Assembly: GCA_011048835.1 (NCBI GenBank)
Contig: DSDF01000067.1
Coordinates: 1-37,544 of the forward strand
Source: Methanoculleus sp.
Lineage (GTDB): Archaea > Halobacteriota > Methanomicrobia > Methanomicrobiales > Methanomicrobiaceae
DNA: 37,544 nucleotides
Reading direction: 5' to 3'
How positions within the stretch are numbered: the stretch's first letter is position 1; each line of letters starts with the position of its first letter. The translations under genes and the position numbers were made by a program. This document shows positions 16,803-20,234 of this stretch, piece by piece. The notes beneath the pieces are model-generated. The model did not search any database. It was not told the origin of the DNA and worked only from the letters and a program-made list of their open reading frames with translations.

Positions 16803-16829
16803 TAACAGTATAGTAGTTGACGTTTGTTC

Positions 16830-17930
16830 ATGAAAAAGATCGCCTGTCTGTTGATTGTCGCACTGGCCCTGGCGGTACCGTCAGCAGCCTATCTCATCAA
16901 CTGCGACTGCCCGACAGAGCTCTCTGTCGGTGAGACGCTTGCACTATCCGGCACCAGCAATCTCCCCCCGGGGTTCACCACCGATATCGTGCTGTACCGG
17001 GGAGCACGGGAAATCGAGCGACAATCCTTCACCATCCAGGATGGTGGCGAATGGTCGGTTGCGTTCGAGACGGCAGGACTGCAGGGTGGCGTCTACAAGG
17101 TCGAGATCGAGGAGAAGACGCTGTATGTCGACCGCGAGTATATCCGGTACGAGTTCGGCTCGAGTTCCGATACGCTGAAGGTGATCACGTTTATCGACCG
17201 TTCCGGTGAGATCGCCGTCACCTCGCCCCTCGTCCAGGGCTTTGCCGACACCCTCCTGATCGCGGGAACGATCGAGAAAAAGCCGAATTCCGCGGTGAAA
17301 ATCGGTGTCGTCGGACCGGCAGGAGCCGTATTCGGCCCGGCATATGTGGCCACCGATGCCTCCGGTCGTTTCACGGCGGACGTGCAGATCAGCGAGACCG
17401 GGCCCTATGAGGTCACCTTCTCCGATGCGGGCGGCCTGATCACCACGGAAACGTTCACGGTAAAGGGAGCGACGGCACCGCCGACCACGCAGCCGACCTC
17501 CGCTCCTGCGATCTCCATTGTCGAGGCCACAGCAGATGCTTCAAGAGAAAATCCAGCATTTTTTGCGGTGGCTACGCAGGACGGCGGGGTGCGCATCACC
17601 ACCTCCGCCGGGGTCGACTGGGTGGTCGAGTACGTCGATGAAGACGGCACGCTCAAAAAGGTCAACACCCAGGGCAGACTGAACCCCGAGGAGGTCCGCC
17701 TGTCCGCACAGGGGGGGACCGTGTACCTCAAAGTGTATCCGGTGCGGTTCAATGACGAGGAAACGGTGACTATTTATGCCGAAAATGTTGATTCGGTTAC
17801 GATAGCGCCCGAAGCGGCACACATCTTCGGTGATGCCCCCGAGGCGACATCCACACCGGAATCGCCGCTCCCTGCCGCCCTCGTGCTCCTCGCAGTCGTT
17901 CTTGCCTGCCTGATGTATTTCAGGAGATAA
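16830..17930 (+). CDS. Cell-surface protein with C-terminal membrane anchor
   Basis: The 366-residue product starts MKKIACLLIVALALAVPSAAYL, a signal peptide, then two or three beta-rich modules (about 22-105, 115-212 and 230-335), with a Thr/Pro linker PPTTQPTSAP near 218-227. It ends with a proline/serine stretch, the hydrophobic span PAALVLLAVVLACLMYF and FRR, a typical stop-transfer anchor. This layout is common among S-layer-associated proteins of Methanomicrobiales. TTG at 16824 is also in frame, but the ATG at 16830 starts the signal peptide cleanly. Binding role is unknown. Confidence 0.8.
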   Translation: MKKIACLLIVALALAVPSAAYLINCDCPTELSVGETLALSGTSNLPPGFTTDIVLYRGAREIERQSFTIQDGGEWSVAFETAGLQGGVYKVEIEEKTLYVDREYIRYEFGSSSDTLKVITFIDRSGEIAVTSPLVQGFADTLLIAGTIEKKPNSAVKIGVVGPAGAVFGPAYVATDASGRFTADVQISETGPYEVTFSDAGGLITTETFTVKGATAPPTTQPTSAPAISIVEATADASRENPAFFAVATQDGGVRITTSAGVDWVVEYVDEDGTLKKVNTQGRLNPEEVRLSAQGGTVYLKVYPVRFNDEETVTIYAENVDSVTIAPEAAHIFGDAPEATSTPESPLPAALVLLAVVLACLMYFRR

Positions 17931-17967: not shown

Positions 17968-18052
17968 GCCGGGATAGTCTAGTCCGGTAAGGCGGTGGCC
18001 TTGAAAGCCACTGGTGCTCGGCACCTCAGGAGTTCAAATCTCCTTCCCGGCG
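17968..18052 (+). tRNA. tRNA-Ser (anticodon UGA)
   Basis: The acceptor stem GCCGGGA (17968-17974) pairs with TCCCGGC (18045-18051), with discriminator G at 18052. The anticodon stem GTGGC/GCCAC encloses the loop CTTGAAA with anticodon TGA, the T arm is AGGAG-TTCAAAT-CTCCT, and a long variable arm (GTGCTCGGCAC) marks a class II serine tRNA. No intron is visible and CCA is not encoded. Confidence 0.96.
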
Positions 18053-18263
18053 CTTCTTTTCATTGTAAATGATCCATGCAGTGCACTGTTGCTGCATTCA
18101 GGACGCAGGGACATCTTTCCCGCACCGGTGCGATGAAACCGGGCGCCGCACGCCGGATTCGCTCCGGTTGAGGGTGCCAGCATGTGCGCTCTTTCGAAGA
18201 TGAAAACCATCCTGGCATAGAATTGAAAGATATTACAAATTGCCTATCAATATATGTAAATAG

Positions 18264-18272
18264 TTATATAAT
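18264..18272 (+). promoter_or_regulatory. TATA box for the coiled-coil operon
   Basis: TTATATAAT is centred 25 bases before the ATG at 18293, and no ribosome-binding site precedes that ATG, so a leaderless transcript is predicted. The rest of 18053-18263 holds nothing I can name. Confidence 0.6.
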
Positions 18273-18292: not shown

Positions 18293-18700
18293 ATGGAAGG
18301 AATCGGCCTCAAAGTACAGGTGCGGGCCGTACCCAGCCGCGGCAGGGTGAGGGTACACGAATCCGTGCTCGGAATGCTTGAAATCGAACAGGGAGACACA
18401 ATCGACCTCTACGGTGAACCTGACGTGAAACCGATGAGCGTGAGCGTCTACGCTGATGCGATGGTGGAAAAGGGTGTCGTCAGGATGGATGCCGGCGACA
18501 TGGAGAAGCTGGGACTGCGGGAAGGCTCCGTGGTTACCGCCCGAAAAACGCCCACGCTTACCGAAAAATTCAAAGCGGCCACGGCAAAAACGACGCAGAG
18601 CGTCGGGGAAGGCGTCAGTTCGGTGTCAAAGAAGATCGCCGGGAAGAAGGAGGAAGCCGGCGAGCCTGAAACAACACCAATGCAGAAGAAGAAGGTATGA
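18293..18700 (+). CDS. Double-psi-barrel (Cdc48-N/VAT-N-like) protein with basic amphipathic tail
   Basis: The 135-residue product has two similar halves, GRVRVHESVLGMLEIEQGD (about 17-35) and GVVRMDAGDMEKLGLREGS (about 61-79). Each is a strand-helix-LGxxxGD unit, as in the double-psi beta-barrel of the VAT/Cdc48 N-domain. No AAA ATPase domain follows; instead residues 88-120 form a Lys/Thr/Ser-rich helix with hydrophobic residues every three or four positions (L, F, V, V, V, I), suited to lie on a membrane, and the end is strongly basic (MQKKKV). It is the first gene of a six-gene cluster, 12 bases before the next. Function unknown; an adaptor or membrane-surface binder is a guess. Confidence 0.75.
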   Translation: MEGIGLKVQVRAVPSRGRVRVHESVLGMLEIEQGDTIDLYGEPDVKPMSVSVYADAMVEKGVVRMDAGDMEKLGLREGSVVTARKTPTLTEKFKAATAKTTQSVGEGVSSVSKKIAGKKEEAGEPETTPMQKKKV

Positions 18701-18712
18701 TGGAGAGAAGCC

Positions 18713-19090
18713 ATGGCATTACCGGTGAATGATTCTGTCATCTATGCCCTCCTCATCTTCGTCGGACTGATCATCATCTATTTTATCATCAAAGAACTGC
18801 GCATATGGCGCAACCAGCCGCGCCTTGCCCAGATTGATCTGGACAGGGAGAAACTGGACCTGATCAGGTCTGAGATGAGCATGCGGGACGAGCCTTACAG
18901 CAAGCTCTCCGACGAAAAACTGGGAGAACTGCGCACGTTAGAGGCTGAAAACGCCGAACTCGAGACCGATATCTTCGGCAAGCAGAAAACGGTTGAGAGC
19001 AGAATTCAGCGGCTGGAAAACCAGGTAAAGGACAGGAAGTACGACAAAATGCTGGATCGCATCCGCGAAGAGGAAATCAAACTGAGGTGA
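18713..19090 (+). CDS. Membrane-anchored coiled-coil protein A
   Basis: This 125-residue protein has an N-terminal membrane span, VIYALLIFVGLIIIYFII (about 9-26), followed by positive residues (K, R) that suggest a cytoplasmic C-terminus. From about 40 on it is charged helix with heptad-like spacing, including LSDEKLGELRTLEAENAELE. The ATG follows GGAGAGAAGCC. Its stop overlaps the next start (GTGA). It resembles the fourth coiled-coil protein of the cluster in layout. No family is recognised. Confidence 0.8.
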   Translation: MALPVNDSVIYALLIFVGLIIIYFIIKELRIWRNQPRLAQIDLDREKLDLIRSEMSMRDEPYSKLSDEKLGELRTLEAENAELETDIFGKQKTVESRIQRLENQVKDRKYDKMLDRIREEEIKLR

Positions 19091-19401
19091 ACGGTGTGTA
19101 TTCCACGGTATATGGAAAGGGACACAAACGAGAATTGCCGGCAACTGACATCTCCCGGACTCCTTCAATCTCCGAAGAACGGCTCCCCACGCTGGAAAAG
19201 CGTCTGGATCGGTATTTCGATACGCACATGCAGGCCATCGTCGATGAATGGGGGCTGGTCACCGCCCACGACCTCGCGGTCTTCGAAAAGAGGCTGGAGG
19301 ATATCAGCAGGGAGATCAAAGGGCTGGAATCCGGAAGAGACAGGCTTGAACAACGCGCTTTGGCTGTCGATGCAGCACTGAAGGAGGTAGAGCAGTCATG
19401 A
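19087..19401 (+). CDS. Coiled-coil protein B with YxD-DEW motif
   Basis: A 104-residue soluble protein starting with GTG, overlapping the preceding stop by four bases. After a polar N-terminal 30 residues it is helical and contains YFDTHMQAIVDEWGLVT at 43-59, a motif shared with the next two genes, followed by a charged coiled coil (residues about 60-100). The stop overlaps the next ATG (ATGA). Presumably cytoplasmic. The start codon is uncertain; a later start would keep the motif. Confidence 0.75.
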   Translation: MNGVYSTVYGKGHKRELPATDISRTPSISEERLPTLEKRLDRYFDTHMQAIVDEWGLVTAHDLAVFEKRLEDISREIKGLESGRDRLEQRALAVDAALKEVEQS

Positions 19402-19622
19402 CGGGCATGGATTCGTACATGGACACCTACCTCGATAGACGCATGGCATCCATCATGGACGAGTGGCAGCTCGCCACGCGGTTCGAAACAGCTGACATCG
19501 AACACCGGCTCAGGGTCATCGAGGACGATATCCGGTCGATGGACGACTTCGAGAAGATGGCGGATGTGAAACTGACCGACCTCGAGAATCGGATCGAACG
19601 GCTGAAGGAGGCGAAACAGTGA
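19398..19622 (+). CDS. Coiled-coil protein C with YxD-DEW motif
   Basis: The 74-residue protein is nearly all helix. The shared motif, YLDRRMASIMDEWQLAT, is at 11-27 and a coiled coil DIEHRLRVIEDDIRSMDDF follows. It overlaps both neighbours by four bases, which argues for coupled translation and fixed stoichiometry. It looks like a shortened copy of protein B. Confidence 0.78.
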   Translation: MTGMDSYMDTYLDRRMASIMDEWQLATRFETADIEHRLRVIEDDIRSMDDFEKMADVKLTDLENRIERLKEAKQ

Positions 19623-19969
19623 CCGGCCTGGAAGTTCTTCTCGTCATTCTCGTCATCGTCATCATCGCCCTGATAGCGTTCTTCCTCTACTACTTCTTCC
19701 GTGGATCTTCAGGACCGATTTCGCTCTCGCGTCCCATGGAGAGCCGCGTGGATCTGTACCTCGACCGGCGCCTCGATCAGCTGATGGAAGAATATTCGCT
19801 GATCACGAAACCGAAATTAAATACGTTCAAGGCGGAAAAGGCGACAGAACTCTCGGAAGATGAGCTGAAGGTCGAGAGGCTGAAGCGATTTCGTGACGAG
19901 ATGACCGCAACACTGTCAGAGATGGAGAAGCGATTGGATGTTCTGGAAGCGGAATCCGGGGTCGATTAA
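19619..19969 (+). CDS. Membrane-anchored coiled-coil protein D with YxD-DEW-like motif
   Basis: This 116-residue protein starts at GTG overlapping the previous stop. Its N-terminus is a long hydrophobic span, LEVLLVILVIVIIALIAFFLYYFF (described here as residues 4-27), then RGSSGP. The shared motif appears as YLDRRLDQLMEEYSLIT at 47-63, and a charged coiled coil follows, with LSEDELKVERLKRF near 76-90 that echoes LSDEKLGELR in protein A. So this one combines the anchor of A and the motif of B and C. Cytoplasmic C-terminus is inferred from the charges. Confidence 0.8.
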   Translation: MTGLEVLLVILVIVIIALIAFFLYYFFRGSSGPISLSRPMESRVDLYLDRRLDQLMEEYSLITKPKLNTFKAEKATELSEDELKVERLKRFRDEMTATLSEMEKRLDVLEAESGVD

Positions 19970-20234
19970 GAGCCCGGGGGCGGGAGGGGAGAAGGACCTG
20001 TTTTTCCGCCTGAAACGGGAGATCACTCCCATCCGCCCGCAGGGAGACCTCCCCCTCCGTGATCAGGGCAGCTTTTCCCGGTACACCTGTGAACTCTGTA
20101 CCACTCCGGCACCTCTCGCCGAGCTGAAGCAATGCGTCCTCTGCGGCAGATGGGCATGCAGTTCGTGCTGGACACAGGAATACTATGTCTGCAACGCATG
20201 CAACGGCGTACTACGGCTTCACCTGCTCAAATGA
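19938..20234 (+). CDS. FYVE/RING-like double zinc-finger protein
   Basis: The 98-residue product ends in a cysteine-rich module with C51-x2-C54-x11-C66-x2-C69-x4-C74-x2-C77-x7-C85-x2-C88. The eight cysteines in four CxxC pairs, with CG after the second pair, follow the spacing of cross-brace zinc fingers such as FYVE domains. The first 45 residues are polar and probably flexible. The ATG at 19938 lies within the end of protein D (32-base overlap); no later start exists before the zinc finger. No lipid- or ubiquitin-related role can be claimed from the fold alone. It closes the six-gene cluster. Confidence 0.72.
   Translation: MFWKRNPGSIKSPGAGGEKDLFFRLKREITPIRPQGDLPLRDQGSFSRYTCELCTTPAPLAELKQCVLCGRWACSSCWTQEYYVCNACNGVLRLHLLK

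Follow-up and report, generated by a model that had tools for sequence, protein, structure and literature searches.

A conserved six-gene cassette of Methanomicrobiales and its possible role as a membrane-surface scaffold

What holds six small, closely packed archaeal genes together, and what might their products do? The genes in question lie in a 37,544-nucleotide stretch of Methanoculleus sp. DNA (contig DSDF01000067.1, assembly GCA_011048835.1), here called the window. A preliminary description made from the letters of that DNA had seen in them an operon resembling a membrane scaffold. Here, we follow the cassette through other archaeal genomes, take its proteins apart domain by domain, and weigh the roles that could account for them.

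A compact cassette behind one probable promoter

All six open reading frames are found on the + strand of the window, at 18293-20234. The features to which we refer below are as follows.

18264..18271, + strand: TATA-like box TTATATAA, 21-28 nt 5' of gene A; from its sequence and its enrichment over 64 loci
18293..18700, + strand: gene A, 135 aa, a double-psi beta-barrel (DPBB) followed by an 11-residue-periodic tail; from CDC48_N, DPBB matches in the PDB and lag-11 periodicity
18293-18556, + strand: the DPBB of gene A, about residues 1-88
18557-18697, + strand: the tail of gene A, from lag-11 periodicity over 65 relatives
18713..19090, + strand: gene B, 125 aa, a predicted N-terminal membrane span (about residues 8-27) and a helical coiled-coil part; from hydropathy over relatives and its conserved place in slot 2
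19087..19401, + strand: gene C, 104 aa, a predicted soluble coiled coil with a YFDxHMxxIxxEWGL module; from alignment and profile-profile paralogy to D and E
19398..19622, + strand: gene D, 74 aa, the module common to C, D and E in its smallest form; paralogous to C and E
19619..19969, + strand: gene E, 116 aa, a predicted membrane span (residues 3-28) and the same module; from an AlphaFold2 model, hydropathy and 22 of 60 relatives
19938..20234, + strand: gene F, 98 aa, a Prok-RING_2 zinc finger with FYVE-type cysteine spacing, the finger at about 20088-20201; from PF14445, the cysteines, AlphaFold2 and Foldseek

The gene overlaps that the preliminary description had pointed out are present: 4 nt each for B/C, C/D and D/E, and 32 nt for E/F, with a gap of 12 nt between A and B. 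These junctions recur elsewhere. Specifically, in 64 complete loci, the 4-nt overlap is kept 43 times at C/D and 43 times at D/E, and the 32-nt overlap of E/F 26 times. Across the same 64 loci, the best match to the TATA-like TTTATATA averages 5.7 of 8 positions before gene A, versus 4.0-4.3 before each of the other genes. The enrichment before gene A only is in line with the earlier proposal of one promoter for six genes; the box 5' of gene A is probably that promoter, and the six frames apparently constitute one transcription unit.

Upstream of the cassette lies a tRNA-Ser gene (17968-18053), and, 363 nt upstream of the cassette, a surface-protein-like frame occupies 16824-17930. In 14 of 75 loci, a relative of the latter is the cassette's immediate upstream neighbour; it shares the cassette's orientation in the window's clade and has the opposite one in Methanolinea-type loci. 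The downstream frames, read by eye, we take to be hypC, hypA and hypE.

Six genes that stay together

Scanning about 85,000 prokaryote species with an alignment of gene F, we obtained 74 loci; the scan requires exact peptide motifs, such that remote relatives may escape it. The loci come from Methanoregula, Methanolinea, Methanospirillum, Methanogenium and other Methanomicrobiales, from two Theionarchaea, and from one Altiarchaeota metagenome-assembled genome (MAG). Among the 75 archaeal loci that include the window, 64 carry the genes in the order A-B-C-D-E-F. Of the remaining 11, contig ends truncate eight, frameshifts split two, and one is rearranged. In this last locus (L142, Altiarchaeota), the order is B-C-D-E-F-A: gene A has moved to the end and all six genes are kept. 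Gene B occupies slot 2 at every locus with enough sequence. Conservation of all six genes in order at 64 loci excludes chance.

Co-occurrence in a set of 60 relatives points the same way. The gene E protein, PF14445 (gene F) and the gene A profile match the same 22 genomes, which span 10 genera and three of six family codes. Each of the 22 has the six genes in a single order on a single strand, with gene B frameshift-split in one. The gene A profile gave two further weak matches, both to Cdc48-sized frames. As stand-alone copies of gene A, the 60 relatives offered only such frames (E 5e-5 to 6e-4) and one degenerate second copy (G012:C16:3324-3545) that has four stop codons, in a genome with an intact cassette elsewhere. 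The cassette is thus patchy between genera, yet whole wherever sequence suffices. The check proposed earlier, whether the six genes stay together in other Methanomicrobiales, has a positive outcome, and the scattered or absent orthologues named as the outcome that would speak against it did not appear. We consider it almost certain that the six genes form a single functional module.

Strong PF14445 matches are confined to Methanomicrobiales among 394 genomes of the order's phylum, and they occur in one of 29 genomes of the Altiarchaeota locus's phylum and in two of 115 genomes of the phylum of the Theionarchaea loci. The two Theionarchaea MAGs have genes 3' of the cassette in common, which speaks against simple contamination. 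Weak Prok-RING_2 or gene F profile matches elsewhere (at most 32 bits) were judged to be generic zinc fingers from their low scores and partial coverage. The scan of viral contigs found no viral relative of gene F.

Flanking genes change from locus to locus: none of their families is found at more than 15 of the 75 loci, and a general seventh gene, sought at these flanks, was not found. Both Theionarchaea MAGs carry an extra coiled-coil gene with a membrane span directly after gene F, possibly a lineage-specific seventh member.

L136:6276-6752 and L137:1215-1766, same strand as the cassette: extra coiled-coil gene after gene F, Theionarchaea MAGs

In Methanogenium cariaci JCM 10550 (L141:4277-6330), frameshifts split genes B and F and gene A has extra glycines, probably through assembly errors. 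Beyond the rearranged Altiarchaeota cassette, a Yip1-domain membrane gene lies on the opposite strand (L142:3956-4300).

Gene A: a barrel, a periodic tail and, in some relatives, a sensor domain

The N-terminal half of gene A had been described as a Cdc48-N-type double-psi barrel, and our searches concur. In Pfam, the window's protein matches CDC48_N with E=2.9e-8 and 34.2 bits, just under the curated cut-off of 35.1. Single-sequence and profile searches of the PDB return designed and natural DPBBs, Cdc48 and VAT; the top profile match, to a repeat protein, is driven by the tail. The Pfam search found no second N subdomain, no AAA ATPase and no further domain in the 135-residue protein; the first two were not found in its relatives either.

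The tail is periodic. Over 65 relatives, its residue identity is 0.243 at lag 11 and 0.230 at lag 22, against 0.08-0.14 at the other lags from 3 to 21. In most relatives sampled, an amphipathic moment appears near 98 degrees, consistent with an amphipathic helix of low hydrophobicity in which K, G, A, T, V and E abound. Relatives also show some similarity to the Apolipoprotein family (best E 7.6e-7, which falls short of the family cut-off). The window's own tail is short and weakly amphipathic (p=0.09). Hence the "basic amphipathic tail" of the preliminary description needs amending: amphipathicity fits most relatives and is weak in the window, and the tail is better called an 11-residue-periodic helix.

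In ten relatives, a C-terminal TrkA_C/RCK_C domain, above the Pfam cut-off of 27 bits, completes gene A; the Pfam search did not find it in the window's copy. The TrkA_C form is clustered, requiring three changes on a tree versus 9.5 with shuffled labels; the tree was built without gene A and its root is unsure, such that it does not tell gain from loss. A diadenylate cyclase is encoded in 38 of 40 carriers, and its copy number does not track the TrkA_C form. A seeming link between that form and extra diadenylate cyclases in 10 genomes was gone once 30 more were added.

The C-terminal residues differ between the two forms. Where TrkA_C is missing, a Leu preceded by D, E, N or G closes 40 of 57 gene A proteins (as in KDL, KEL or KDEL), compared to 3.6% of background frames, and none of ten TrkA_C-form proteins ends in [DE]L. 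The window's protein ends in KKKV. The Leu ending is possibly a docking tail. In one Theionarchaeon, a DUF389 membrane-protein gene lies 19 nt before the open frame of a TrkA_C-bearing gene A, a possible hint of a transport or ion-related client.

L136:3132-3644: DUF389 gene, Theionarchaeon
L136:3783-4730: gene A with TrkA_C, same Theionarchaeon

Genes B to E: two predicted anchors and three paralogues

Only two of the six proteins appear to enter the membrane. Averaged over relatives, the best 19-residue Kyte-Doolittle value is 2.8 for gene B and 3.0 for gene E, and the same analysis gives no strongly hydrophobic stretch in A, C, D or F. Each of B and E has a single hydrophobic stretch, in agreement with the membrane spans first proposed. 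Both stretches are N-terminal and followed by basic residues; given the positive-inside rule, the helical part would be cytoplasmic. For gene E, the AlphaFold2 model has helices at residues 3-28, 41-60 and 64-113 (mean pLDDT 76.8). With the hydropathy of B and E, the model accords with the earlier picture of single N-terminal anchors with helical remainders. A Foldseek search with the gene E model returned no match.

By sequence comparison, genes C, D and E are paralogues. Their profiles match one another with 98% probability and E-values of 1e-12 to 1e-14, while reversed controls give about 1%, and a YLDRRxxxIxxEWxL-like module is common to all three. Iterated HMMER grouped gene B with them, which would make it a fourth paralogue; profile-profile comparison did not support the union. 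DUF7310 homology of gene C was likewise set aside, with a single member matching at E=0.002, far under the cut-off.

Gene F: a Prok-RING_2 zinc finger, probably FYVE-like

Gene F belongs to a known domain family. It matches PF14445 (Prok-RING_2) with E=9.1e-28 and 96.6 bits, well over the curated cut-off of 22.4. The family is presumably based on the 2011 work of Burroughs, Iyer and Aravind. The eight cysteines, arranged C-x2-C-x11-C-x2-C-x4-C-x2-C-x7-C-x2-C, had been recognised as a module from the window's sequence; in 71 relatives, seven of them never vary and the eighth is present in at least 90%. We take their spacing to be that of FYVE fingers.

Structure prediction suggests the same affinity. 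The AlphaFold2 model has pLDDT of at least 90 at 71 of 98 residues. Its best Foldseek matches in the PDB are mainly FYVE and PHD domains, with probabilities of 0.91 for CARP2, 0.77 for EEA1 and 0.69 for a RUN-and-FYVE protein, all at E above 0.1. The direct comparison with Pfam FYVE gives E=0.21. A FYVE-like fold class is no more than likely, because a profile search of PDB sequences gives a weak TFIIE match only (E 0.0009). In 18 aligned relatives, (L/I/M)(R/K)QC replaces the phosphatidylinositol 3-phosphate (PI3P) motif R(R/K)HHCR at the third cysteine, and thus classic PI3P binding is not expected. Of the FYVE/RING-like finger first proposed, the FYVE-like spacing and structural matches stand, if only at E above 0.1; the finger belongs to an existing family and lacks the PI3P motif.

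A possible scaffold for membrane proteins

How might these parts work together? We infer that the six proteins come together in one structure on the cytoplasmic side of the membrane. Proteins B and E would be single-span anchors with the N terminus outside and the C terminus inside. One helix-turn-long-helix module would have given rise to C, D and the cytoplasmic part of E, and B could combine with them into a heteromeric helical scaffold. Gene A would be peripheral, held at the lipid surface by its 11-residue-repeat helix in the manner of synucleins, perilipins and apolipoproteins, and its double-psi barrel would be a docking domain beside the scaffold. The reading of 11-residue repeats as lipid-surface helices draws on work on those three protein groups (PMC8064757). 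In some lineages, gene A may be switched by its C-terminal RCK_C domain acting as a small-ligand sensor, with c-di-AMP or ions as candidate ligands; in BusR, RCK_C acts as a switch upon c-di-AMP binding (PMC10243994). Gene F would serve as a zinc-finger adaptor. The notion is that the cassette specifies a membrane-surface scaffold, tuned by a ligand or by stress, that organises client membrane proteins. We regard this as the likeliest role and give the whole account a probability of roughly 0.45, slightly short of even odds.

Several points weigh against reading the cassette as a membrane device of this kind. The gene A tail in the window is short and weakly amphipathic, and that copy has no TrkA_C. 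Moreover, 11-residue repeats also occur in LEA proteins, which need not bind membranes. The flanks of 75 loci revealed neither a client nor a general genomic partner.

A bolder form of the scaffold account, which we hold to be distinctly unlikely, is a second-messenger-controlled archaeal membrane coat. In this self-contained six-protein machine, duplicated anchors would hold on the inner membrane both a FYVE-type finger and a protein with a perilipin-like helix, the latter sensing a ligand in some lineages. The two would shape or sort the membrane, with part types otherwise associated with eukaryotic endomembranes.

Alternative explanations

The foremost rival is membrane-protein quality control: the scaffold would collect faulty membrane proteins, and A and F would be adaptors that pass them to the cell's Cdc48 or proteasome. 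The Cdc48-N-type barrel, the RING/FYVE-class finger and the membrane anchors all suit such a pathway. Nonetheless, we judge it unlikely, as gene A is a barrel in which neither the second N subdomain nor the ATPase domain was found, no protease, ATPase or ubiquitin-like gene is a general neighbour in 75 loci, and Cdc48-sized relatives exist in non-carriers too.

Anchored coiled coils could also build a polar scaffold for the archaellum or for chemosensory arrays, and a few gene C relatives show weak FlaC_arch similarity (best E 4e-4). This reading is quite improbable. Archaellins are encoded in 58 of 60 relatives, nearly all non-carriers among them, and thus the cassette is at least not required for the archaellum; being equally common without the cassette, archaellins do not mark the archaellum as a required partner. 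Nor are archaellum genes general neighbours in the 75 loci.

More doubtful still is a storage-granule coat, in which a phasin-like gene C would act with a perilipin-like gene A. In its favour are the perilipin-like tail and a weak resemblance to Phasin, seen for 11 of the 24 relatives of gene C (best E 2e-5). Against it, two of six proteins are membrane-anchored, and a class III PHA synthase is present in one of 60 relatives, a non-carrier. The synthase, sought with the class III model, is absent from every carrier in that set, a result that bears on PHA granules only.

The family name Prok-RING_2 invites the idea of a ubiquitin-like conjugation unit with gene F as its E3 ligase. We find it scarcely credible: the cysteine spacing and fold matches of gene F are FYVE/PHD-like rather than RING-like, the six proteins include no E1, E2, ubiquitin-like or JAB domain, and no flanking gene is conserved in more than 15 of 75 loci. 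For antiphage defence, the six window proteins gave no PADLOC family match at E 0.01.

Finally, that six unrelated genes are neighbours by accident is a reading for which we found no support beyond the diversity of their domain types, and it is already contradicted by content and order that stay invariant while the flanks vary, by the L142 rearrangement that keeps all six, and by A, E and F being present or missing together across 60 relatives.

Relation to known systems

The preliminary description had assigned the operon no recognised function. For the system, this judgement stands: a six-part system with this make-up matches no known kind among those tested. For the parts, it does not, as gene F is a member of PF14445, a family already known in Pfam, and gene A of relatives carries TrkA_C. 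The open literature yielded no paper on the six-gene cassette; an earlier remark in the 2011 domain survey is conceivable. That an invariant six-gene unit is kept whole while its surroundings change argues strongly, in our view, for a cellular machine not yet described. The cassette is testable, because several cultured carriers exist, among them Methanospirillum stamsii and Methanogenium marinum.

Genes A and F have counterparts in systems of known kind. Gene F belongs to Prok-RING_2; that family, however, is one domain without a six-gene system or fixed order, and gene F spacing is FYVE-type rather than RING-type. With FYVE and FYVE_2 (Slp/rabphilin) fingers, gene F shares the cysteine spacing, a glycine after the fourth cysteine and its best structural matches, all above E 0.1, and it has (L/I/M)(R/K)QC in place of RRHHCR. 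The N-terminal half of gene A is the same barrel type as the Cdc48/VAT N domain and other DPBBs. Unlike Cdc48 and VAT, gene A has the barrel only, with neither an ATPase nor a second N subdomain, and continues into a tail of 11-residue repeats, followed in relatives by TrkA_C. That tail has the 11-residue periodicity of perilipin, synuclein and apolipoprotein helices, although the window's version is short; the likeness is no claim of sequence homology, and lipid binding is putative.

KtrA, CpaA and BusR are RCK_C/TrkA_C sensors, and ten gene A relatives likewise possess a C-terminal TrkA_C. BusR joins RCK_C to its effector domain through a long coiled coil (PMC10243994). Gene A differs from these sensors in having no RCK_N, channel or DNA-binding domain, and the window's copy differs further in having no TrkA_C. 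The three-domain gene A of relatives, in which a small-ligand sensor of known type follows the putative lipid-surface helix, provides a concrete biochemical entry point into the cassette.
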